A stretch of DNA of 28,946 nt. It comes from a virus. Positions 5,097 to 28,946 of the stretch are shown one piece after another. The stretch is from IMG/VR virus record IMGVR_UViG_3300008952_000225, positions 1-28,946 of that record. One strand, written 5' to 3'. Position numbers and translations under genes: made by a program. The notes beneath the pieces were generated by a model. That model was not told where the DNA came from. It saw nothing but the letters and a program-made list of their open reading frames with translations, and made no database searches. How positions within the stretch are numbered: position 1 is the stretch's first letter; every line of letters begins with the position of its first letter.

Positions 5097-6296
5097 TTAC
5101 TCCGTAGCTTCTAAAAGCTTTTTCCTCTTTATAATATAACTCAAAGAGCCACGATAGTCAAATGGTTTATTAAGAATTCGTTCAAATTGTGCAACTGCTT
5201 TCATTGCGCTGTGTGTTCTGTTGATTTCTAACAAGTCGTCCACAAGCAACCGCTTCTCTTCGGGTGAAAACTGCGATTCTTCTTCCATGAATCTAATCTT
5301 AAAATACGTTTCTAAAAAAAATTCTTCTGAAAACTTAAGATTCAAGTAAGCTGGCGTATAGTCAGCGGGGCGAATGGTGATATTGATTGTCTTGCCGTTA
5401 CATTCATCGGTTTTTCTAATATACTTCGGCTTAATTCTATTATATATCGTTAACAGTTGGCCTTTAAAGGTGTGATAGTACGAATTATAAGCCGGCATAT
5501 AATAGGTCCCCAACACCTTGGGAGTTGAATTAGAACCATAAGCGCTGGCATATTGAATCATAGGGGAAGAGCCGATATCAGCAACGAGGCGCCAAGGGAT
5601 ATGTCTATCTACCATAAACCCATAAGAGCGGCACGCATTTAAATAAAACTCCCAATTGTTACTCTCAACAAACTTTTCCATTTTCTCTTTATCGTTGTTG
5701 GGATCCAAATTTGCAATTTCTATTGCCAAGCCGGAAACAGAAGCAGGGCAGCGGCGACTTTTGATATATGCGGGATAGGTGAAAGGAGTGGTGCCGACTG
5801 CACCTTCCAGTGCTGCTGTGAGTTCTTTTATGAATTGTTCAAAATTTTCAAGGTGCACATTTTTCGCCTTGAAGGCGCCTTTAAGTGCATTAGTATAGTT
5901 AGCTTGGTGTGTCTGGTAATGAACACGAGGTTTTTCATACGATTTGTATACTTTAAGGGTGGTCAAAAAAGGATCGGTCGTATCAATTTTTTTAGTCTGC
6001 GCGCAGCGCTCAAACTCTTGCGAGAGCCCCTTGAATGCATCAGCTACAAAATTAATAACCTGTGCGTTCTCCTCTACAGCCTGCTTGTTGGGAAGAGCTT
6101 TCATGTTGGCTCCGGCGCCCATTGTCTCCATAGGTACAAACAATTGAGTCACTCGTCCATATAAAAGCTTTTCTCCAAAATTAAAATCAACTAAATTGTC
6201 ATAACCTAAAGTTATAGAATCATTATTATAAATAGTTTTTTTATAAAACAGTTCGCTCACCGATTCGGCTTTGGGGTCTTCGCTATAAATGCTCAT
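5097..6296 (-). CDS. Unrecognised 399-residue protein, probably virion
   Basis: I place the start at the ATG at 6296, which overlaps the stop of the preceding 1138-residue gene as ATGA and has GGAG nine bases upstream. An ATG at 6341 in the same frame would need a 49-base overlap and has no ribosome site. The product is soluble-looking, rich in Tyr, Asn and Lys, with no signal peptide or membrane segment. Recognisable stretches such as YGRVTQLFVPMET (about 46-58) and a Tyr-rich YYMPAYNSYYHTF (about 267-279) do not point me to a family. Tight coupling to the large upstream protein, and position at the end of the tail/baseplate block, suggest a virion or assembly partner. It is followed after two bases by the polymerase gene, so it marks the junction between structural and replication genes. 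Confidence 0.7.
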   Translation of the reverse strand: MSIYSEDPKAESVSELFYKKTIYNNDSITLGYDNLVDFNFGEKLLYGRVTQLFVPMETMGAGANMKALPNKQAVEENAQVINFVADAFKGLSQEFERCAQTKKIDTTDPFLTTLKVYKSYEKPRVHYQTHQANYTNALKGAFKAKNVHLENFEQFIKELTAALEGAVGTTPFTYPAYIKSRRCPASVSGLAIEIANLDPNNDKEKMEKFVESNNWEFYLNACRSYGFMVDRHIPWRLVADIGSSPMIQYASAYGSNSTPKVLGTYYMPAYNSYYHTFKGQLLTIYNRIKPKYIRKTDECNGKTINITIRPADYTPAYLNLKFSEEFFLETYFKIRFMEEESQFSPEEKRLLVDDLLEINRTHSAMKAVAQFERILNKPFDYRGSLSYIIKRKKLLEATE

Positions 6297-9200
6297 GTGC
6301 CTGACTCCGCTGCTGCTGCCTGACGAGAGGGCAATGTGCATTTACTATAATCAACTTCTTTGTCCTCTTCATCAACCTGCTTCGGCACCACACACCCAGG
6401 CTTCGTTATCTCCGCTACCCATTTTGCTGTAATTTCAGAGTTAGCCACGCCAGGACCAAAGGTGTGTTCCGAACGAATAATCATATGATATCCCCCCACT
6501 CCCAATTGTGTCAAATCGTACTCGCTATTCACACTAGGTGAAAAGCCTGCAGGGTCGATGAATATATAATTGCCGGGAAAAGCACTTACATCTGCATATG
6601 TGCTTATCTTAGCATCATACATTTCTCTCAACTGTTGAAGCCCATCATATCCTTGTTGTTCAAAGCGAACCTCCTTGAGACCTGGAGCGTCAGTCTTAGT
6701 TAAGTTAATGTTTTTAATGATGCCTGTGGGTTTTCCTATCTGATAATGCCAAATGCCTCGCGTTTGATCTTCGTCTTTGTCTCCGTTCATCTTTTCAGTA
6801 GGATAGGTACGCGCAGCGAAATAAACTAAATAATTAATTTCTTTCGCAAAGCCGGGATCGACGATGGCAGTTCCGCGTTGTCCCGAGATGCTTAATAATG
6901 GATAAGAAAGCTCAGACCGGTCGATACGCAAGCGCTTAGCGGGGACGCTTCGTACATCGGTTATCATATCGTCATTTACTGCATCAGCAGGGAGTACTCC
7001 CTGCTCTACCAACAATTGAGTTTGGCGCCAGGCATCGCTGTTTGCGCGCATTGTTGCATCATCCAGTGGCACATCATATGTTGTGCGTTGTATGGCGGCG
7101 GTGATTTCATCGGGGCCATCAACAGTTTCTTTATAAGCAGTCAGCGAAGCTTGTGCTAGTTTAGTAGACTGTTTGGCAACGTTGCTAAAACATGTGTCGT
7201 TGTTCAGGAAGGTTCTTAAAAATTCGTTAAACAAATCATTTAAAAATTTGGGAAGCGGATAGACGGCTTCATCTTTCTTTAACATTTTTTTAGTTAACCA
7301 TTCAATAAAATACCTTACAGATATGGGAACATCGCCCATGCATATCATTTTACTCTCTATGGTGCCGCCCTTCCCGGTGACGGGATCCGCCTTAGTGGTA
7401 TGCACAATTTCCATTGGTCCCAACAACAACCTGAATTTTTTAAAGTTTTCTAAGTAGCGAACATAATTGGCTCTTTCATCCATAATCTGTTGTTCGGTTA
7501 TAATGCCCTCTGGATCGTCAGTGCTGCTTCCCACTGAAACCGATCCTTCGCTGATGTCCACTAGTGTCTTTTCGATCCCTTTCAAAATAATATCAATTAA
7601 ATCACTAATATAAAAATAACTCACTGCTTGTGCAGGGTTGACGTCTCTAAGTGCATTGGTGCGTACTTCAACATCGGAAGATAACTGCTCTGTTAATGTT
7701 GGTTCATAGCCTGGTGGCATGCCCAAAATATATGGCGCTAAATCTATTTCTCCTCGGATGGGACCCTCCGCCTGGAATGTTACCAGTTCTGCTAAAGGAA
7801 TATCTAAGAATTGAATTTTTCTTTCATTGAGCAAATTTGTAACTAAGGACTGCATACTAGTATCAATTTCTGCTTGCATAAGATCTTTTTGAGACGACCG
7901 CAATTCGTTTACTTTTTCGGTCTCGCAAGTTTTATTATATTCTTGATATTGAAGTTTGCGATTCAGTTGACTGACTGTGACTGTAGGATCGCTAAAAATA
8001 TTAAAGACAGATTGGTCAAAGAAGTCTTCTACGTATGCTAAATAATTTAATACAAACTCTACGCGCCCTTGTTCGTCAATATTAAACTCATGAATAGTGG
8101 GAGTGAGATTTAAAGTAATGCACGAATCTTCAATAGCTTTTTTGAGAGGATCGCCCGATGGAATCAAACTATCTGTACCGGGGCGCGCCCAGCCTACGAT
8201 GGCTTTAAGACGAAAGTTTAATTTAGTTTCAGGTACGGTGCTTACGTCATGATCGAGCGGGTTAATCTGATCAGTGGTTACGGGTTTACACCCTTGGGGT
8301 CCGTCAGGCAACCCTCCGGTTTTAAGTGCCAAATCCGCATAAGAATAATCGCCCCGATCTCTTAAAAGCTCATCAAAAGTATTTGCATGCAATACTAGTT
8401 TAGCTTTGATACTCTTTTTAATTGCAAAAGGGTTATCGGCTTCATAAGAAAAGGTAAACTTTTTAATTCCTACTCCGTGGCCACGCCTCTTTTTGTTCAT
8501 CAAAAAGTCTTCAAGATCACCCATGAAACCCCCTCGTAAAAATGGGGCAGCACCTCTATCAATAGCACTTTGCATCGTAGCGCCCCAAGGATATGCCATG
8601 CTCGTATAAAAAGAATCAAACTTCATTTCTATTTGGCTTTCGTTGCCTTTCTTATCACTGATAACTTTAAATAATCTAATCATTGGCTGCAAGCTTGAGA
8701 GTTGTGCTGTCTTCATATCAAAAAATGCTGCTTTGCTGCTATCTCCGTCTTTCCCTATATGTTGAGTTAGTTTGTTCATAAAAGCAAAAGGATCGCCCTG
8801 TGCCAACAAGCATGCATTGGTGCCGCCCCCTTGATAAGGAAGGCTTTTGAGTGCCTGCTCTTCATCGAGCGTTTGTTTAAGTTGAGACAACTGATAAATG
8901 TGACCTAACAAAAAACATTGCTCTTTGAACACGATCCCCTCTTTGCCGGTAGACGTGGCGGACGCAACGAGAGCTTCTTTTCGTTCTTTCAGGTCTGCAC
9001 CCCTGCTCATGGCCGCATCATATGCTTCGCAAGCTGCAGATGTGGCGGGGTCGAATTGGACGCTCGCTAAATCCTCCGCTGAGACGCCTCGGTCCGTGGC
9101 GGTGGCTCGGGCAGCTAAACACTTTTGTCCTACTGCTGAATTTTTTGCGCCTTCAGAGATTCTGGCAATCTCCTCTGGGAGACCTCTCAACATGTCATTT

Positions 9201-21885: not shown

Positions 21886-23667
21886 TTAGCTACCTGCCTG
21901 TCCTAAGAGACCCTGCACAATAACTAGACCGTACATATCGGGACGCACCATCTTCTTGGCGTACCGAGTCATCACGCCCTTGCGGGGCACGAAGTCTTCG
22001 GGTCCAAAGATAGTGGGAGTAGTCTGTAGTGGCACATAAGGTGCGTATACATATCCACTCTCAAGGAAGCTGGAACCTCGACGGCCAACCAAGATAACGT
22101 TACGAAGGAAGTAGGGGTCTACAATCACATCGAACTTCTTGGAAAGGCTACCGACCTTAACAGCGCCAACCGTACCGGTTTCATCGTCAGCAGTGATGCT
22201 AGCGCGGAATCCAGCGGTGAACTCAAGGATGTTGGCAACTTCAGGTCCGCAGACGATAAAGTTGGCTCCACCACGGAGAGTTTTACGGTGAATCTGTGCA
22301 GATACATCGTTGATGGTTTCAACAAGAGTCTCATACCACTCACTAACGGTACCGGTGAAGTCAGGAGCCGCAGAGCTAGCACCAATTTCAGCACCAGTTA
22401 CGCGGTTCACAAACAGACCAGGAGAACGTGACCAGTAATAAGTACTCGCCTTCGCTCCGACAATAAGATCCTCAAGAATCTCACGGTCAATCTCAAGAGC
22501 AATCTGCTCAGAGAGAATGCTGGTTAGCTCGACTTCAGCGTCAAGGTTGTGATAGGCATTAAGATCCTGTCCCAACTCTGGCGTCCACTTAGCCTTGAGC
22601 TTCTTGGTAACTGCGGTAACAGCCACGGAGTCGACCTTAATGTCAATCTCAGGGATGTTCTCGTTGTTTTCCAAGCCCCAGACAGTAGTACCAACAATTG
22701 AGCCAAGAGCAGCGCTACCACTAAAGTTATCCGTTTGGGGATAACTAGCTGTGTGAATAGCAGTTGATGCCGTTAACATGCTGTGAAGCTGTGTTGCCGT
22801 AGTCGTTCCACCGTAAGACACGAAAGTCAGATAAACAACACTAGTGGAAGAACCACTGTAGCGCGTTAGACGGCGTGCCTGTACTGGAAGAGCGCTTGCG
22901 GCAGGGTTACCACCAGCAGAGCTTGACTGGTTGAGGCGAGCGTATGAACCACTTGCATCAACGTAGGTGACTGCCACCAGATCCTCTTTGTTGAACTGCG
23001 TAAAGCCACTAATATCCATTGTTGCAACGGCTACCGTAGCGGTACCAGCGTTAGCTTCTAAGTCCGTATCATATCGACACAGCTTAGCAACATCACCAGC
23101 ACTCGAGCTATAAACACTCGAAGTTACATAGGTCAACGTTAGACTGGTGGTAGAACCAGTTGGAGACGAATATGCGTTGTTGAGGTTATAAGGACCTTCT
23201 GACGCATTCGCATCGCTGATAATCACACCTCCAGTGATCTGACTTGCAATTCGACCACCGCCATAGACGGACTCTTCATCACCTGTTGGATCACCATAAC
23301 CTAGACGAGGCAGTCCCGCACCATTGGTGGAGACGGTAAAGTCCAGGAAGAAGATAAGTCCACTTGGTAGACTCATCGGCTGAACGCTAACGAGATCGTT
23401 GGCGATCAAACCTGCAAACACTCGGCGTACAATGGGGAACGCGACGGCTGCAAAGCCTTCGACATCTCCACCGGACATAGTGCTTGACTCACGGAGAAGT
23501 TCCTTAGCTTGGTTCTCGAGCAGTCGCGCCATACTTTGACGATGGCGATCTTGATCAAGTCCCTCTAATAGACCAGTCTTCTCCCACTTACTTAACAATG
23601 CGTTCCCTTCGGCACGCATATCACGATTGACAACACCTTCGGTCAATCTTTCTACTATACTAGCCAT
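21886..23667 (-). CDS. gp23: Major capsid protein, gp23-like
   Basis: The 593-residue protein has the T4-type capsid start: a charged N-terminal region (1-70), then FPIVRRVFAGLIANDLVSVQPM (77-98) and LIFFLDF (104-110), the conserved opening of the HK97-fold in gp23 relatives. KAKWTPELGQDLNAYHNLDAE and the helix after it, and NFIVCGPEVANILE with the DVIVDPYFLRN strand near the C-terminus, complete the fold. A Ser/Thr/Gly-rich stretch at about 150-320 looks like an inserted outer domain, larger than in T4 (521 residues). Sites that fit T4-type maturation cleavage are L58-R59-E60|S61 and V69-E70|G71; the protease is not in this window. It follows the scaffold gene by 30 bases with AGGAGGT, one of the best ribosome sites here, as suits a highly expressed protein. 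Confidence 0.94.
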   Translation of the reverse strand: MASIVERLTEGVVNRDMRAEGNALLSKWEKTGLLEGLDQDRHRQSMARLLENQAKELLRESSTMSGGDVEGFAAVAFPIVRRVFAGLIANDLVSVQPMSLPSGLIFFLDFTVSTNGAGLPRLGYGDPTGDEESVYGGGRIASQITGGVIISDANASEGPYNLNNAYSSPTGSTTSLTLTYVTSSVYSSSAGDVAKLCRYDTDLEANAGTATVAVATMDISGFTQFNKEDLVAVTYVDASGSYARLNQSSSAGGNPAASALPVQARRLTRYSGSSTSVVYLTFVSYGGTTTATQLHSMLTASTAIHTASYPQTDNFSGSAALGSIVGTTVWGLENNENIPEIDIKVDSVAVTAVTKKLKAKWTPELGQDLNAYHNLDAEVELTSILSEQIALEIDREILEDLIVGAKASTYYWSRSPGLFVNRVTGAEIGASSAAPDFTGTVSEWYETLVETINDVSAQIHRKTLRGGANFIVCGPEVANILEFTAGFRASITADDETGTVGAVKVGSLSKKFDVIVDPYFLRNVILVGRRGSSFLESGYVYAPYVPLQTTPTIFGPEDFVPRKGVMTRYAKKMVRPDMYGLVIVQGLLGQAGS

Positions 23668-23697
23668 TTTAAAATACCTCCTATAAATGTATTTGTA

Positions 23698-24885
23698 TTA
23701 TTTAATACCTGCTAGCCGACGCATCCGCTCTGCGAATGGGTCAGTGGGTTGTGCGGACTCTTTACGAGTTGCACGAATTACAGAAGAAGGACGTGTAATA
23801 GCTTCGCTCAGCGATTGTGGGCTTCGCGTTGGCTTAGCTCCCGCTGCGCTTTCTAGCGTCTTATATATTGTCTTTGCTTCTGCTACAGAATCGGCTCTTG
23901 AAATAGCTTCGACAATCTTTTCTTTTTGTCGCTCATTTAAGGAGGTATTTCGTAATACACGATTTGTATAAAGCAAGCGAGCATTAGAGAGATTGGTGTC
24001 TTGCACCGCTTCTTTAAGCTCTGTTGTTGCCTGCTCATATTGGGAAAGTCGCTTTTTGAGTTGCTTATTTTCGAAAGTCAACTCTTCTTTAGCTTTCTTT
24101 AAAGTTTCTAATTCTGCATTAGCATCGGTGCCGCGTCGTCTTGCAAAGTCGCGCTCTACACCCTGCTTTTTCTGAAAGTCTGGTCTGCCGGCCCAACCGG
24201 ATAGCTCATAGCCCATATCAACGGTTAGTTTCTCAGCAATAGAATCAATAAGTTCGTCGGAAATTTCGACATCATCAGTCTCTGTCTCTGCGATGGTGGA
24301 TCCTTTCTTGCCTGAAGCATCTGCGTCATCGGCAGACTCTTCAGCAGCGCTGGCTGCGCCGGCGGATGCATCTGTGTCGCCATACTCAGTAGTTTCGTCG
24401 TCGTCATCTTCCGATAACATATCTTTAAGATCCGACTCATCAAAGGATAGCTCTTCATCAATCTCCGCTTGCAGAGACGCAACGGATTCGCGGAGGGCGC
24501 CCAAATCGAGCGTGACTTCCACATCTTTACCTTCGGGAGGAAGGTTGGTCAAATTGTCACCATTCATTTTCGAGGCACTATCTGTGGCTGCATAAGGAAC
24601 ATCCTCAGTGTCTTCATCTAGTGATTCGTCACTTTCTCCACCTTCGGCTTCAGCAGGCGGTGCGAAGTCACCACCGAGGTCAGCACCCATATCGCCACCG
24701 AGGTCGCCACCCATATCGCCACCTAGATCCAAGTCGGCGCCAAGTTCATCTTGTTCAAGAAGCTTAGTTAAAGCCGTGCGCACCTCATCAGAATACTTAT
24801 CAATTATTGACGATTCAGCATTTTTGAGGGCGGCTTCGCGCAGGGCGGCGGCATCCACAATAGCTTCTTTTAATAGACTAGACAT
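23698..24885 (-). CDS. gp22: Prohead core/scaffold protein, gp22-like
   Basis: The 395-residue protein is very acidic. Residues 45-115 hold Asp/Glu/Gly stretches with five GGDx repeats (55-74); 115-225 are again acidic with many Ser and Ala. A coiled-coil region follows (about 250-300, ELETLKKAKEELTFENKQL), then LLYTNRVLRNTSLNERQKEK and a basic C-terminus. Position just before the capsid gene and the acidic, helical character fit the scaffolding core that is later degraded. The conserved LLY-x-N-x-x-L block near the C-terminus recurs in scaffold proteins of T4-like phages. The start follows AGGGAG, and the shared motif lies 36 bases upstream. Confidence 0.68.
   Translation of the reverse strand: MSSLLKEAIVDAAALREAALKNAESSIIDKYSDEVRTALTKLLEQDELGADLDLGGDMGGDLGGDMGADLGGDFAPPAEAEGGESDESLDEDTEDVPYAATDSASKMNGDNLTNLPPEGKDVEVTLDLGALRESVASLQAEIDEELSFDESDLKDMLSEDDDDETTEYGDTDASAGAASAAEESADDADASGKKGSTIAETETDDVEISDELIDSIAEKLTVDMGYELSGWAGRPDFQKKQGVERDFARRRGTDANAELETLKKAKEELTFENKQLKKRLSQYEQATTELKEAVQDTNLSNARLLYTNRVLRNTSLNERQKEKIVEAISRADSVAEAKTIYKTLESAAGAKPTRSPQSLSEAITRPSSVIRATRKESAQPTDPFAERMRRLAGIK
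24664..24723 (-). repeat. Five 12-bp tandem units in the scaffold gene
   Basis: Five in-frame units encode GGDM, GGDL, GGDM, GADL and GGDF. Met and Leu units alternate, giving a 24-bp higher-order period. The region is a likely site of unit gain and loss by slippage. Confidence 0.8.
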
Positions 24886-24918
24886 ATAGTTCTCCCTAAA
24901 AATAATAGTTTTTCAAAA

Positions 24919-24929
24919 TAAATAGTATT
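24919..24929 (-). promoter_or_regulatory. Shared intergenic motif AATACTATTTA before the scaffold gene
   Basis: Eleven bases identical to the sheath-gene copy, about 36 bases from the scaffold start. CTATAAT stands directly upstream of the element here. Putative late promoter for scaffold and capsid. Confidence 0.45.
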
Positions 24930-24950
24930 ATAGGTTGTGAAAAGACTGAA

Positions 24951-26099
24951 TTATGAACTCACTTTTGTAATTATCCACCAATTTGCACCATCAGACTGAA
25001 GGGTGCAACTAGAATAATTAAATTTGAAGACCATGCTATCTTTAAAAAAATCAATTAGTCCTTCTTCTACACGAACAGTAAGGAGATGTGAGTTCAATTT
25101 ATATTTATTTGTATTTATTTTCTTTATGCGCAACATTCTACCTTTACACTCGCTAGCAGCAGGCAACACAATAGTAACTGCATTTTGGGTGGTATCCGCT
25201 AATAGTGTATAATCGTTCTCCTGCACCTCATATTCCGGTGCCGTTATGGTACTAATTTTCTTAAAGACGGCACCGCGATGCTTAAGAGAGCCTTCGATCA
25301 TAACGCCCCTTCTGGCGCGCAGCGAATCTGTCACCAATTCTCCATCCAAATTTAAAATATTGGTATTGGTATTAAAGGTTAGCCCATTAGATGCTTTTAG
25401 TCCGCTTTTTCCACGTACCTGAACACTGTTAAGGGGTCCTTCTGGGTGAAGAGTTTTAGAATTAATATAAGAAGAATGAAAATTAGCAACAGTTGTTCTT
25501 CTTAATTCTCCTCTCGATGCATCATGTACCAACAAAATATCATCATCGCTAAGATTCTGTCCCTGCGTGGTGATATCAGCACAATTTTTAGGCTCTATAC
25601 ATAGTTCATCATCTTTAAAATCCAAACCTCCGTTGACATCCAGGGCTATCGAAACGCCATGCTCATCAACTTGAATTCCTTTGGTTCCCTTTACTTGTAA
25701 TCGATTGCGCACATTGTGAAGACTGGAGCCTAAATTTAAATGCTGAGCCGAGATAATCCCATTAAATCTATCTGCTGGTACGTCTTGCAAGCCTTCGCCG
25801 GAACCGTAGAATTTGTCTGCTCTAATGGTTTTAGTTTTGAGAGTGGTTCCATCAAAGGTGAGATTATATTCAGCTTTGGCGTTCACTCCCCCTTGAAAGG
25901 TAATAAGCGAATTTTTGGCGCCCCCTTCTAAACGTTGAAAAGGTACTTCTTTTAACGTTGCACACACGCTCTTAGCATCTGTGTCATAAAAAGCGCTAGC
26001 GCTAATCGTACTTTTAAATATTTTAATTCCATCAATCTCTTGATCAGCATGTTGGTCTACTGATCCATCAACTCTACCTTTTAAAACATTATATGCCAT
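24951..26099 (-). CDS. Tail fibre or other virion adhesin
   Basis: The 382-residue product has the texture of a phage fibre: short beta repeats with Asn/Gly turns (AEYNLTFDGTTLKTKTIRADKFYGSG, in two blocks at 75-100), phrases such as LNVGGLDF-type turns and NTNILNLDGELV, and a C-terminal module with YTLLADTTQNAVTIVLPAASECKG (about 297-320), then alternating strands ending in SDGANWWII. The same LPAA-led module ends the two other fibre proteins here. No lyase or peptidase motif was seen. It starts at ATG 26099 after GAGG, 34 bases past the Smr-like gene, and probably shares its transcript. It could be a short fibre or a whisker; binding target unknown. Confidence 0.6.
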   Translation of the reverse strand: MAYNVLKGRVDGSVDQHADQEIDGIKIFKSTISASAFYDTDAKSVCATLKEVPFQRLEGGAKNSLITFQGGVNAKAEYNLTFDGTTLKTKTIRADKFYGSGEGLQDVPADRFNGIISAQHLNLGSSLHNVRNRLQVKGTKGIQVDEHGVSIALDVNGGLDFKDDELCIEPKNCADITTQGQNLSDDDILLVHDASRGELRRTTVANFHSSYINSKTLHPEGPLNSVQVRGKSGLKASNGLTFNTNTNILNLDGELVTDSLRARRGVMIEGSLKHRGAVFKKISTITAPEYEVQENDYTLLADTTQNAVTIVLPAASECKGRMLRIKKINTNKYKLNSHLLTVRVEEGLIDFFKDSMVFKFNYSSCTLQSDGANWWIITKVSS

Positions 26100-26133
26100 A
26101 AGGGGGCCTCGCTCTTATATAATTAGCTCTTTT

Positions 26134-26346
26134 TTATTTATGTGTAACTATTAAACTTCCAAAATTAATACAGCTTTCAAAATGCCACTCTAAATCATAT
26201 TCATTAATAACTGTACGGACAATTTCTTGCATTCGCTCAGAATGACCAGTGATAATTTTACAAGGGACTTTACTTCTATAAATGAATCGATGTACTTTAT
26301 ATTCTGCATCTTCATGAAGAGTGCCGTGTAAGTCTAAAGTATCCAT
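26134..26346 (-). CDS. Stand-alone Smr-domain protein
   Basis: The 70-residue product matches the Smr (small MutS-related) domain almost end to end: LDLHG (4-8) is the family hallmark with its DLH triad, a helix follows (HEDAEYKVHRFIYR), then IITGHS (31-36) stands where the family has the I-x-H/T-G-x-G loop, another helix, and NFGSLIV (61-67) at the final strand. Smr domains nick DNA or cleave RNA. The last glycine of the loop is Ser here, so activity is uncertain. Normal domains have 80 or more residues, so this is minimal. No clear ribosome site precedes the ATG, and a strong terminator ends 14 bases upstream, so expression depends on read-through or an unseen promoter. It lies oddly between two fibre genes. 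Confidence 0.7.
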   Translation of the reverse strand: MDTLDLHGTLHEDAEYKVHRFIYRSKVPCKIITGHSERMQEIVRTVINEYDLEWHFESCINFGSLIVTHK

Positions 26347-26360
26347 CTTAATAATTAGTC

Positions 26361-26393
26361 AAAAAAAAGGATGCCCCCTTTCGAGGGGCATCC
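26361..26393 (-). terminator. Strong terminator after the large fibre gene
   Basis: GGATGCCCC, loop TCGAAAG, GGGGCATCC (with one extra G) on the minus strand, followed by eight Ts. It begins 37 bases after the fibre stop codon and should end the fibre transcript. The rest of the 84-base gap holds no promoter I can identify. Confidence 0.9.
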
Positions 26394-26430
26394 AAAAATA
26401 AAGAATAATCTTAAGATAACTAATGAAATC

Positions 26431-28446
26431 TTAGTAGATTTTCCACAGAGCAGCAGATCCTGCGGTTACAGCAACTAACGAAACAGCACCAAATTCTGAT
26501 TCAAGATCAACTGAGGTGTCGCCATCGATAGTTTGAGTACCGTTTCTGGTAATGACAATTTTAAAACCACCAAGCGCAGCCGCCTTAACGACAACAATGT
26601 CACCCAAAGATGGGGCTGCAGGCAGCGTCCAAACCCTATTTTGACTCAAAGTAGCACTTGCATAGTTAATACCAGCGGACAGAGTTACAACCGCATCTCC
26701 ATGAGAGGTAACTGAAATTGAGTCACCAGACCCAGCAGCAGACAACTGACCAGATGAAGCCGTAAGACCAGAACCAGCCATAAGAGCGACAAGGTCGGCC
26801 CACTTTTCTTTCTTACCATCTCCGGTAGCGCCACCATCAAGGAAAACGATGTAGTCATCAGCAACTGTCATTGCTTGGTCGACCAACAGTGCAGGTGACT
26901 TAGCTACAAAGTTATCCATAGTGATAGTCTGTTGTCCATTGTCAGTGACATCGCACATCAACATTAAGTCGCCGGTCTGCACAGTTGTTTCAGCAGTCAT
27001 ACTCTGAAGTGCCAACCCTATCGTACCGCCGCTGCCGGCAAGTCCCGTAGTGGTTACAGTTCCAGCCATCGCACTAGCGATATCAGCAACCGTATCTCTC
27101 CTCATCAATCCATCAGCATCGCGGAAATAGAGCGAATCTGAACCAACGGCAATAGCGGTATCGGTAACACCCGTAGGGGTGAAAGTACCAGAAAGAGCTA
27201 AGTTGCCACCCAAAATGGTGTTACCAACAACTTCCATCGTGGTAGAACCCGAATATGAGGTTGAAGTAACACCAGCCGTAGAAGTAACACCTGCAGCAGA
27301 CAAAGTGCTTGCAGCGCTCACTGCACCTGTAACGTTCAGTGCACCACCGAGGAAGGCAGCACCAACCATTTGCAAGGTGCTAGAGCCGGAAATCGCGTCA
27401 ATGTAACCTGCATCAACATGAGCTTCAGCCCACTGCAATGCAGCACTACCGAGATCGCTCGTGCTATCCGTTTTAGGGATCACATCCGAAGCAACTCTAC
27501 CAGTAACTGTGACATCATCACCAGCCGCATCACCAAGAGTAACAGCGCCATTTAGCGTAGTTGCTCCGGTTGCATCCAAAGCAGCGAAGTTACCAGCACC
27601 AGGCGTAGTACCACCAATGGTACCGGGAGCAGCCCAAGTGGTACCATCAAGGTTATCAGCATTGAGGTTAGTAACCACAGTGGTAGAAGTAACAACGAAA
27701 GGCGCAGTTCCATCAGCAATATCAGATGTGAACTGTGTAGCTCTCAAGCTGTATGCACCAATGTCCAAGTTAGCCGTTGCCGTTAAGGCAGCCGTTGTGA
27801 TGGTACCAGTACTCGTAATATCATCGATGTAACCAGTATCGATGTGAGCTTCTGCCCATTGCTTTGTCGAAGTACCGAGATCTCTCGCGCTATCAGTTGA
27901 CGGAACAAGATCCGAATCAAACTGACCTGTACAGGTGATAGTATCGGTAGCTTCGTTGCCGAGATCCACATCGCCATTGGCAGCAAGAGTGCTGCTAAAA
28001 GTAGCCGATGTTCCGACAACAGCAGCAAATGTACCAGCGCGGGCGGTATCAGCACCGATGATACCATCGATATTCGTACCAACCAAGTCAGTAGCACTAA
28101 GCTTCGTGACAGAGGCGATTTCGCCCGAGCTATCAAGCACCATACACTTACTAGCTGCAGCAGTACCATTAGTGATACCGTCAAGCTTCTCCATGTCGAC
28201 TTCGTTCAAGTCGGCAGAGCCGATGATGAAAGAAGAACCAGCAGTAATAGAGCCAGTTGCAGCAACGGCGCCACCGAAAGTGGAAGCCCCTACTTGATGC
28301 AATGTTCCTGAACCAGAAACAGCACCGGAATCAGTATCTATCTGAAACCTTAAGGTACCAGCATCGTCATCTCTAATTTCTAGAGTTCCCGATTGTACCA
28401 ATTTGCCTACCATTAAGGCAGGACCTGTTTGAAATTTATAAGACAT
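26431..28446 (-). CDS. Tail fibre protein with internal repeats
   Basis: I start this at ATG 28446, which has GGAGG ten bases upstream, giving 671 residues; a TTG at 28491 in frame lacks a ribosome site. The protein is almost wholly small residues (Ala, Gly, Ser, Thr, Val, Asp) arranged as beta repeats. Two copies of a block with DLGS/DLGT, QWAEAHVDAGYID-type ends recur 142 residues apart. The last 75 residues (RVWTLPAAPSLGD, then QTIDGDTSVDLESE and ALWKIY) are a terminal module shared with the other fibre proteins. It should form a trimeric fibre for host attachment. It is followed by a strong terminator. Confidence 0.78.
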   Translation of the reverse strand: MSYKFQTGPALMVGKLVQSGTLEIRDDDAGTLRFQIDTDSGAVSGSGTLHQVGASTFGGAVAATGSITAGSSFIIGSADLNEVDMEKLDGITNGTAAASKCMVLDSSGEIASVTKLSATDLVGTNIDGIIGADTARAGTFAAVVGTSATFSSTLAANGDVDLGNEATDTITCTGQFDSDLVPSTDSARDLGTSTKQWAEAHIDTGYIDDITSTGTITTAALTATANLDIGAYSLRATQFTSDIADGTAPFVVTSTTVVTNLNADNLDGTTWAAPGTIGGTTPGAGNFAALDATGATTLNGAVTLGDAAGDDVTVTGRVASDVIPKTDSTSDLGSAALQWAEAHVDAGYIDAISGSSTLQMVGAAFLGGALNVTGAVSAASTLSAAGVTSTAGVTSTSYSGSTTMEVVGNTILGGNLALSGTFTPTGVTDTAIAVGSDSLYFRDADGLMRRDTVADIASAMAGTVTTTGLAGSGGTIGLALQSMTAETTVQTGDLMLMCDVTDNGQQTITMDNFVAKSPALLVDQAMTVADDYIVFLDGGATGDGKKEKWADLVALMAGSGLTASSGQLSAAGSGDSISVTSHGDAVVTLSAGINYASATLSQNRVWTLPAAPSLGDIVVVKAAALGGFKIVITRNGTQTIDGDTSVDLESEFGAVSLVAVTAGSAALWKIY
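27391..27512 (-). repeat. Fibre repeat, second copy
   Basis: Encodes VTGRVASDVIPKTDSTSD and LGSAALQWAEAHVDAGYID. It lines up without gaps with the block 426 bases away. DNA identity is partial, so this is an old duplication kept by protein structure. Confidence 0.7.
27817..27938 (-). repeat. Fibre repeat, first copy
   Basis: Encodes CTGQFDSDLVPSTDSARD and LGTSTKQWAEAHIDTGYID, the partner of the block at 27391-27512. Confidence 0.7.
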
Positions 28447-28522
28447 ATATTTATACCCTCCAAGATATATATTTGTATTAAACAGGCTCAATATGTCGAA
28501 ACATACGTCACCCGTTCATTTA

Positions 28523-28530
28523 TAAATAGA
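28523..28530 (-). promoter_or_regulatory. Shared intergenic motif CTCTATTTA before the large fibre gene
   Basis: The coding strand reads AACTCTATTTATAAATG about 77 bases from the fibre start, a looser copy of the ACTATTTA element. On the opposite strand the same bases give a perfect TATAAATA, the T4-type late promoter core, but pointing away from the genes. Confidence 0.35.
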
Positions 28531-28550
28531 GTTCTCGAGGGGATCAATAG

Positions 28551-28937
28551 TCAATAAACGAAGAATTTACCGATGCCGTTGCAATAAATCTGGATGCTTG
28601 CATAGGGTGACTGTAAAAGTACTTCATTTTGTCCATCTATTACATCATCACCGGTGCATGTAATAGTGACAGGATATGAATCTACCGCCCCTCCCTCGTC
28701 TTTTATGATATACGTTTGCCCATTTAAAAGAGCAGTAGCAGCCGGAAGAGTTAACGTAATAGTGGAACTGAGAGTGTCAGACTGTATTCCTATTAGATAA
28801 TCAATTTCTTGAATTGTGTAATCAGCGGCGACTACTTTTCTCACATAACCAATTCCGCCAAACATTTGAATTTGATAAGCCCGCAACTTGAACAGGCGGC
28901 CGGGATCCATAAAGATCCCATTGTTTTTAAAGTTCAT
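28551..28937 (-). CDS. C-terminal fibre module, possibly 5'-partial
   Basis: An ATG at 28937 gives 128 residues, but the frame stays open to the window edge nine bases upstream and no ribosome site is visible there, so this may be the end of a longer fibre gene. The product contains YTIQEIDYLIGIQSD (about 41-55), then ITLTLPAATALLNGQTYIIKDEGG and VTITCTGDDVIDGQ, ending in KFFVY. This is the same terminal module that closes the two other fibre proteins, beginning with LPAA and followed by an IDG turn, and is common at the ends of virion adhesins. Function: receptor-binding or structural fibre part. Confidence 0.6.
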   Translation of the reverse strand: MNFKNNGIFMDPGRLFKLRAYQIQMFGGIGYVRKVVAADYTIQEIDYLIGIQSDTLSSTITLTLPAATALLNGQTYIIKDEGGAVDSYPVTITCTGDDVIDGQNEVLLQSPYASIQIYCNGIGKFFVY

Positions 28938-28946
28938 GAAGCCTAC

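Follow-up and report, generated by a model that had tools for sequence, protein, structure and literature searches.

On the evidence of its predicted fold, its Pfam matches and its motifs, the 70-residue protein encoded at positions 26134 to 26346 on the minus strand of the window is a complete, minimal but divergent Smr domain, which we call mini-Smr. The window is the whole virus record IMGVR_UViG_3300008952_000225 and comprises 28,946 bases. The mini-Smr gene is an optional cassette and is maintained by selection. Our best explanation, which we hold with evenly balanced confidence, is that mini-Smr is a stand-alone protein that binds or cleaves RNA, acts on translated mRNA, and is expressed late from a leaderless message. 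If so, a phage Smr protein without an accessory domain would reveal the capabilities of the Smr domain by itself, and would also bear on whether phages use it in handling ribosome collisions or the turnover of mRNA.

All 22 called genes of at least 90 residues in the window lie on the minus strand. The mini-Smr frame begins at an ATG and reads MDTLDLHG...ITGHS..., as the earlier note had it, placing DLH at residues 5-7 and TGHS at residues 33-36. A longer frame or an alternative start was rejected, there being merely four codons between the preceding in-frame stop and the ATG. Upstream of mini-Smr lies a fibre-like gene (26431 to 28491, minus strand), for which the fibre reading is that of the earlier note and no strong family match was obtained. 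Downstream is the gene for a 382-residue protein, here called the MAYNVLKG protein (24951 to 26099, minus strand), which is a conserved neighbor with no family match. The major capsid protein gp23 is encoded further on (21886 to 23667, minus strand; Gp23 match with E 4.7e-74). The best tblastn records for this protein include an uncultured phage, Flavobacterium phage immuto, Microcystis phage Mel-JY01 and Rhodothermus phage RM378, with identities of 40-51% over 62-68% of the protein. The phage carrying mini-Smr belongs to a T4-related group, probably of the Far-T4 type. At the right end of the window, the open reading frame at 28551 to 28946 has a weak T4 gp9/10-like match.

Searching IMG/VR with the single protein as query identified 7 relatives, and an alignment of eight sequences identified 104 related stretches; these are redundant, and 80 were kept, some of them from overlapping samples. 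Two huge phages and bacteria also encode mini-Smr. The 52 family representatives are 65-80 residues long, with starts set in this analysis, and at this size mini-Smr has no MutS-type ATPase. An AlphaFold2 model built from a 50-row alignment has a pLDDT of 94.4 and the order strand-helix-strand-helix-strand-strand. The top five VIA-align matches to this model are all Smr domains, with 62-70 of the 70 residues aligned: those of MutS2 from Thermus (Z 11.0), Deinococcus (10.6) and Bacillus (10.3), human N4BP2 (9.4) and E. coli YdaL (9.1). Other folds appear from Z 8.7 downward, interspersed with more Smr chains, and the lead of the Smr domains is clear but modest. The predicted fold is thus that of a complete Smr domain, in keeping with the earlier proposal that this is close to the smallest Smr domain possible and at odds with the fold unlike Smr that the same note had allowed for.

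Pfam Smr (PF01713) matches 44 of the 52 representatives at E<=0.1, the best at 9.8e-6. For the window protein itself the match is 17.1 bits (E 0.0064), below the gathering cut-off of 25.7, and we therefore speak of a divergent Smr-fold family rather than of a curated Pfam member. Foldseek ranks Smr chains first (best E 0.0099). Profile-profile comparison by hhalign gives weak matches, both to 12 canonical Smr sequences cropped so that the N-terminal DLH is removed (probability 10%, E 0.0032) and to 14 that include DLH (probability 2.1%, E 0.022); the TG/HG motifs are in register in both. Because Foldseek and profile-profile support is weak, the assignment rests on fold, Pfam matches and motifs together. 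The window protein has no NCBIfam match at E<=0.01, no PHROGs family is matched by more than three of the 52 members (best E 0.01), and a PDB search with an eight-row sequence profile returned a single match, a chance hexokinase.

L6, H7, I32, G34 and S36 are invariant in the 52 representatives, and position 5 is Asp in 51. The DxH motif of mRNA-cleaving Smr proteins is thereby kept (D in 51 of 52, H in all), whereas GxG is replaced by GxS in all 52, and the residue before it, His in canonical proteins, is Thr in 51. Mini-Smr thus shares DxH, but not GxG, with SmrB, Cue2 and NONU-1. E. coli SmrB, an mRNA endonuclease acting at collided ribosomes, likewise has LDLHG and an Smr domain without a MutS part, but is 183 residues long, has an N-terminal extension that the 70-residue mini-Smr lacks, and carries HGxG in place of ITGxS; BLASTP aligns just 19 residues of the two (E 0.11). 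MutS2 C-terminal Smr domains are the best structural matches (Z 10.3-11.0), and yet mini-Smr has neither the ATPase nor the KOW domain nor HGxG of MutS2, and has DLH where the B. subtilis protein, as given in the available part of PMC10897456, has DLR. Eukaryotic N4BP2-type (family 2) Smr domains resemble mini-Smr in their TGxG-like second motif (accessible text of PMC3200294), which is TGxS here, and in structure (Z 9.4). They differ in that mini-Smr is stand-alone, is found in phages and bacteria, and has Ser for the second Gly. Stand-alone Smr proteins of Bacteroidota, with open frames of 168-288 residues, keep DLH in 13 of 14, but they also keep HGxG, have an insertion after DLH and are longer.

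Our literature search on the Smr domain or small MutS-related proteins together with phage found no phage Smr family of this type, judged by title among the matches listed. The term Smr is absent from the available main text of PMC4360716, PMC7824862 and PMC7198788. In the accessible part of PMC3200294, the earlier phage Smr protein on record is the repressor of Lactobacillus phage phiFSW, which is like mini-Smr in being a phage-encoded Smr domain without an N-terminal stretch. It is unlike mini-Smr in being described as a repressor, the comparison being one of description and not of sequence.

Chromosomal relatives provide a lead to function. A search of 99 genomes (a Flavobacteriales MAG and relatives) gave one weak match besides seven strong chromosomal mini-Smr relatives. 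Six of the seven strong relatives, all six in small genomes, have a same-strand ABC-F gene adjacent or one gene off, and ABC-F is near mini-Smr in 6 of 10 chromosomal relatives overall; G131 and three Chloroflexota relatives have no comparable ABC-F neighbor. NCBIfam names ABC-F in two of these loci, one above the cut-off and one below it, where the gene is incomplete at the end of the locus, and all six ABC-F genes match NCBIfam-named ABC-F at 68-100% identity over the part present. The six ABC-F-linked genomes have no canonical Smr match at E<=1e-4, while 14 of the 20 other genomes of the set have one; these are the proteins in which DLH is kept in 13 of 14. The ABC-F linkage and the missing canonical Smr are suggestive, in genomes that are related, possibly incomplete, and may reflect one event. 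In the huge phage LR756502 (642 kb), an RNase R-like gene (positions 6670 to 8610 of locus L009) lies about 1.5 kb from mini-Smr.

Smr proteins are now viewed as ribosome-collision factors in bacteria and eukaryotes, and the available part of PMC10897456, which reports this, associates mRNA cleavage and RNA binding with the DxH and GxG motifs. We propose that mini-Smr would act late in infection, binding mRNA, most likely on ribosomes that are translating or have stalled, and probably cleaving it in the manner of SmrB by means of DxH. Its targets may be host messages, early phage messages or those on collided ribosomes. A role on translated mRNA is favored over one on DNA because DxH is kept, because of the ABC-F neighbors and because of the RNase R-like neighbor in LR756502. 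The earlier note had offered a stand-alone factor acting on host DNA or mRNA as one option; that mini-Smr stands alone is supported, and mRNA is its possible target. Mini-Smr has neither KOW nor any of the other parts that aid MutS2 and SmrB in binding to collided ribosomes, and its net charge of -3 (family median -2) is unlike that of a typical nucleic-acid binder. The changes from GxG to GxS and from His to Thr may mean that RNA binding or catalysis differs from that of canonical Smr domains. A broader reading is that proteins with DxH plus TG[NHK]S, 65-80 residues long and with nothing attached, form a new Smr subtype that replaces canonical Smr near ABC-F in some small-genome Flavobacteriota. 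Phages would then use it late and leaderless to cut mRNA on ribosomes, thereby freeing those that have stalled or steering ribosomes toward virion messages. We put this forward tentatively, as a picture that is unlikely to hold as a whole.

The strongest alternative is that mini-Smr is a non-cutting regulator which binds RNA or the ribosome and uses the Smr fold for binding alone. The loss of GxG throughout the family is what such a protein might show, and there are precedents: the B. subtilis MutS2 Smr domain binds collided ribosomes without mRNA cleavage (accessible part of PMC10897456), and the phiFSW repressor is itself filed as an Smr domain without an N-terminal stretch (available text of PMC3200294). 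The near-universal retention of the catalytic D and H speaks against it, whereas elsewhere in the Smr family the His has been lost repeatedly (accessible part of PMC10897456), and we regard a purely binding role as possible but rather doubtful. That mini-Smr acts on DNA, cutting or binding branched or recombining molecules and so aiding phage recombination or repair, seems to us unlikely. Older work proposed such a DNA role for MutS2 Smr domains, and T4-type phages replicate via recombination. The placement of mini-Smr between gp32 and UvsX in one lineage, a counterpoint to an RNA role, points to DNA, these being its neighbors in 19 loci and in two more of variant order. Against this, the DNA-repair location is just one of several and six chromosomal relatives lie near ABC-F. 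Moreover, mini-Smr keeps DLH, a motif that the available part of PMC10897456 describes as catalytic in SmrB and as rare among MutS2 proteins.

The genomic locations of mini-Smr are varied. We grouped 93 loci by location, a number that includes six duplicates of contig stretches already counted. The place occupied in the window, between the fibre gene and the MAYNVLKG gene and upstream of scaffold and gp23, accounts for 38 of the 93, and the gp32-UvsX region for 21, gp32 and UvsX having been identified in one locus (L007) and extended to others via sequence clusters. Another 25 lie beside other conserved neighbors, and for two large examples of these, tested in L008, Pfam gave nothing and PHROGs no more than an unknown family; the remaining nine are elsewhere, four of them on bacterial contigs. 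On a 58-row tree of mini-Smr proteins with few firm forks, locations cluster, with 8 changes against a shuffled mean of 33.7. Several copies per phage were looked for and rejected, each of 20 records, many of them fragments, having exactly one match.

Presence or absence at the same place in relatives, a comparison proposed in the earlier note, shows a gene that comes and goes whole. Mini-Smr stands in front of the MAYNVLKG gene in 25 of the best 80 of 141 relatives of that gene and is absent in 55. In close pairs, for example L140/L145 and L184/L194, the entire frame is present or absent between similar flanks. On a FastTree phylogeny of 61 MAYNVLKG relatives (near-copies removed; 18 with mini-Smr, 43 without) presence or absence of mini-Smr changes 13 times, and well-supported branches require 10 of these changes. 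Shuffling gives a mean of 15.5 changes, with no more than 13 in 27-39 of 500 shuffles. Mini-Smr was found elsewhere in none of 20 records searched from the 55 loci with an empty fibre site, all partial; the 20 one-copy records, searched with a somewhat larger alignment, served as the only control. In 11 of 47 distinct Smr-less junctions (among them L164, L166, L174, L182 and L190), a pair of CTATTTA-type boxes is found at a spacing of 18 nt, and such tandem boxes might be deletion scars.

The earlier note had linked mini-Smr to exchange of the neighboring fibre genes by recombination. Whole-gene presence and absence between close relatives at the fibre site, and the 13 changes on the MAYNVLKG tree, are the behavior to be expected of a cassette promoting such exchange. 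Judged by location the link is not borne out, however: 55 of the 93 loci are not at the fibre site. In addition, Smr-less relatives retain the layout of fibre gene, terminator and box, and the flanks alone could therefore serve recombination. We consider a fibre-exchange function very improbable. The least credible reading, that mini-Smr is a remnant of a longer inactive gene (a possibility the earlier note had raised) or a chance open frame, draws on its short length and weak single-sequence Pfam score, and is ruled out for practical purposes by the 104 relatives, by representatives whose 65-80 residues do not mark them as fragments, by the complete predicted fold, and by dN < dS in all 18 differing gene pairs (dS saturated in four; a 19th pair identical), with a dN/dS ratio of 0.35 in L044/L054 and below 0.2 in the other pairs.

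Behind the upstream fibre gene lies an intrinsic terminator (26361 to 26393, minus strand), consisting of a hairpin of 10 pairs, 7 of them GC (26393-26369), with eight T directly after it (26368-26361). The folding energy of 26355-26430 is -23.3 kcal/mol, compared with -12.3 for shuffles (z -4.2). From the T-run to the mini-Smr ATG there are 14 bases (26360-26347), exactly as described earlier. The same arrangement of hairpin and T-run recurs in every one of the 23 distinct regions upstream of fibre-site mini-Smr genes, the window included, and in each a CTAnTTA box follows the terminator. In the window this is a CTAATTAT box (26358-26351, minus strand), a variant of the CTATTTA promoter-like box of this phage group, which ends 4 nt before the ATG and whose promoter function is inferred. 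A second CTAATTAT box (26126-26119, minus strand) precedes the next gene, with GAGG and then an ATG downstream of it.

We surveyed the 100 bases upstream of 350 called genes in the window and in pieces of five related records. No heptamer there is more strand-biased than CTATTTA, which occurs in 41 regions and in none on the reverse strand; ACTATTT is found 39 times forward and 3 times reverse. Across the whole sources, CTA[TC]TTA occurs 109 times forward and 12 times reverse, with 52 of the 109 outside called genes. The CTATTTA-type box is likely to be the late promoter of this phage group. It is like T4 late promoters, described in the accessible part of PMC2988020 as having a single AT-rich box of 8 bp, roughly one turn ahead of the start, and no conserved -35 element; the same source gives a/gC at -13/-12 for late promoters of phage Aeh1. 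The available part of the Far-T4 paper (PMC4360716) states that T4 core genes of transcription regulation were not detected. The earlier statement that mini-Smr has no visible promoter stands for sigma-70 types, which match 23500-28946 at chance level (9 found, 11.2 expected) and were rejected, and is qualified by the promoter-like CTAATTAT box. The box reads ACTATTTA in this phage group, unlike the T4 late box, which is TATAAATA. Sites with at most one mismatch to TATAAATA number 59 in the whole window on both strands, 5 of them exact, against 34.3 expected from 100 shuffles; none lies between the terminator and the Smr start, and this box was rejected as the mini-Smr promoter.

The same statement held that mini-Smr has no clear ribosome site, and this part stands: the window gene has no clear Shine-Dalgarno sequence (anti-SD energy -0.2 kcal/mol). 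With ACTATTTA occupying -13 to -6, as the late box does in T4, a 4-nt gap would put the A of the ATG at +1. The mini-Smr mRNA is accordingly spaced such that a leaderless message is predicted, which is the likely explanation of the missing ribosome site, and the upstream terminator would keep this message apart from the fibre transcript. Box-to-start gaps were counted in 31 loci, namely the 23 distinct fibre-site regions and 8 of 13 further loci (L162, L163, L186, L188 and L189 were left out). The gap is 3-7 nt in 27 of these, with a mode of 4 nt; it is 4 nt or fewer in 18 of those tabulated first, and 3 nt in L214. In the other four (L006, L041, L043 and L160) it is 14-15 nt, and in all four the Shine-Dalgarno match is strong (-6.4, -9.5, -8.4 and -6.6 kcal/mol, respectively). 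The median energy in 25 short-gap loci is -0.2 kcal/mol (shuffles 0.6), with values of 0.6 and 2.8 in the short-gap L206 and L214; for comparison, it is -6.4 for 42 distinct MAYNVLKG genes and -6.05 for all 350 genes. Two exceptions, L014 (-6.4) and L149 (-5.5), combine a short leader with a good Shine-Dalgarno energy, but in these the purine stretch is upstream of the box. An uncultured phage group in which late expression is likely to be leaderless, and in which a Shine-Dalgarno sequence accompanies a longer leader, offers a direct test of late-promoter geometry and of leaderless translation. In L062, L078 and L085 (where Smr ends near 5234, 5234 and 1901), the C-terminal SIYG is encoded by the CTATTTAT box of the next gene. 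At position 19656 of L130, a CTACTTAT box lies just 5 nt before the ATG of another gene, which is a second candidate for leaderless expression.
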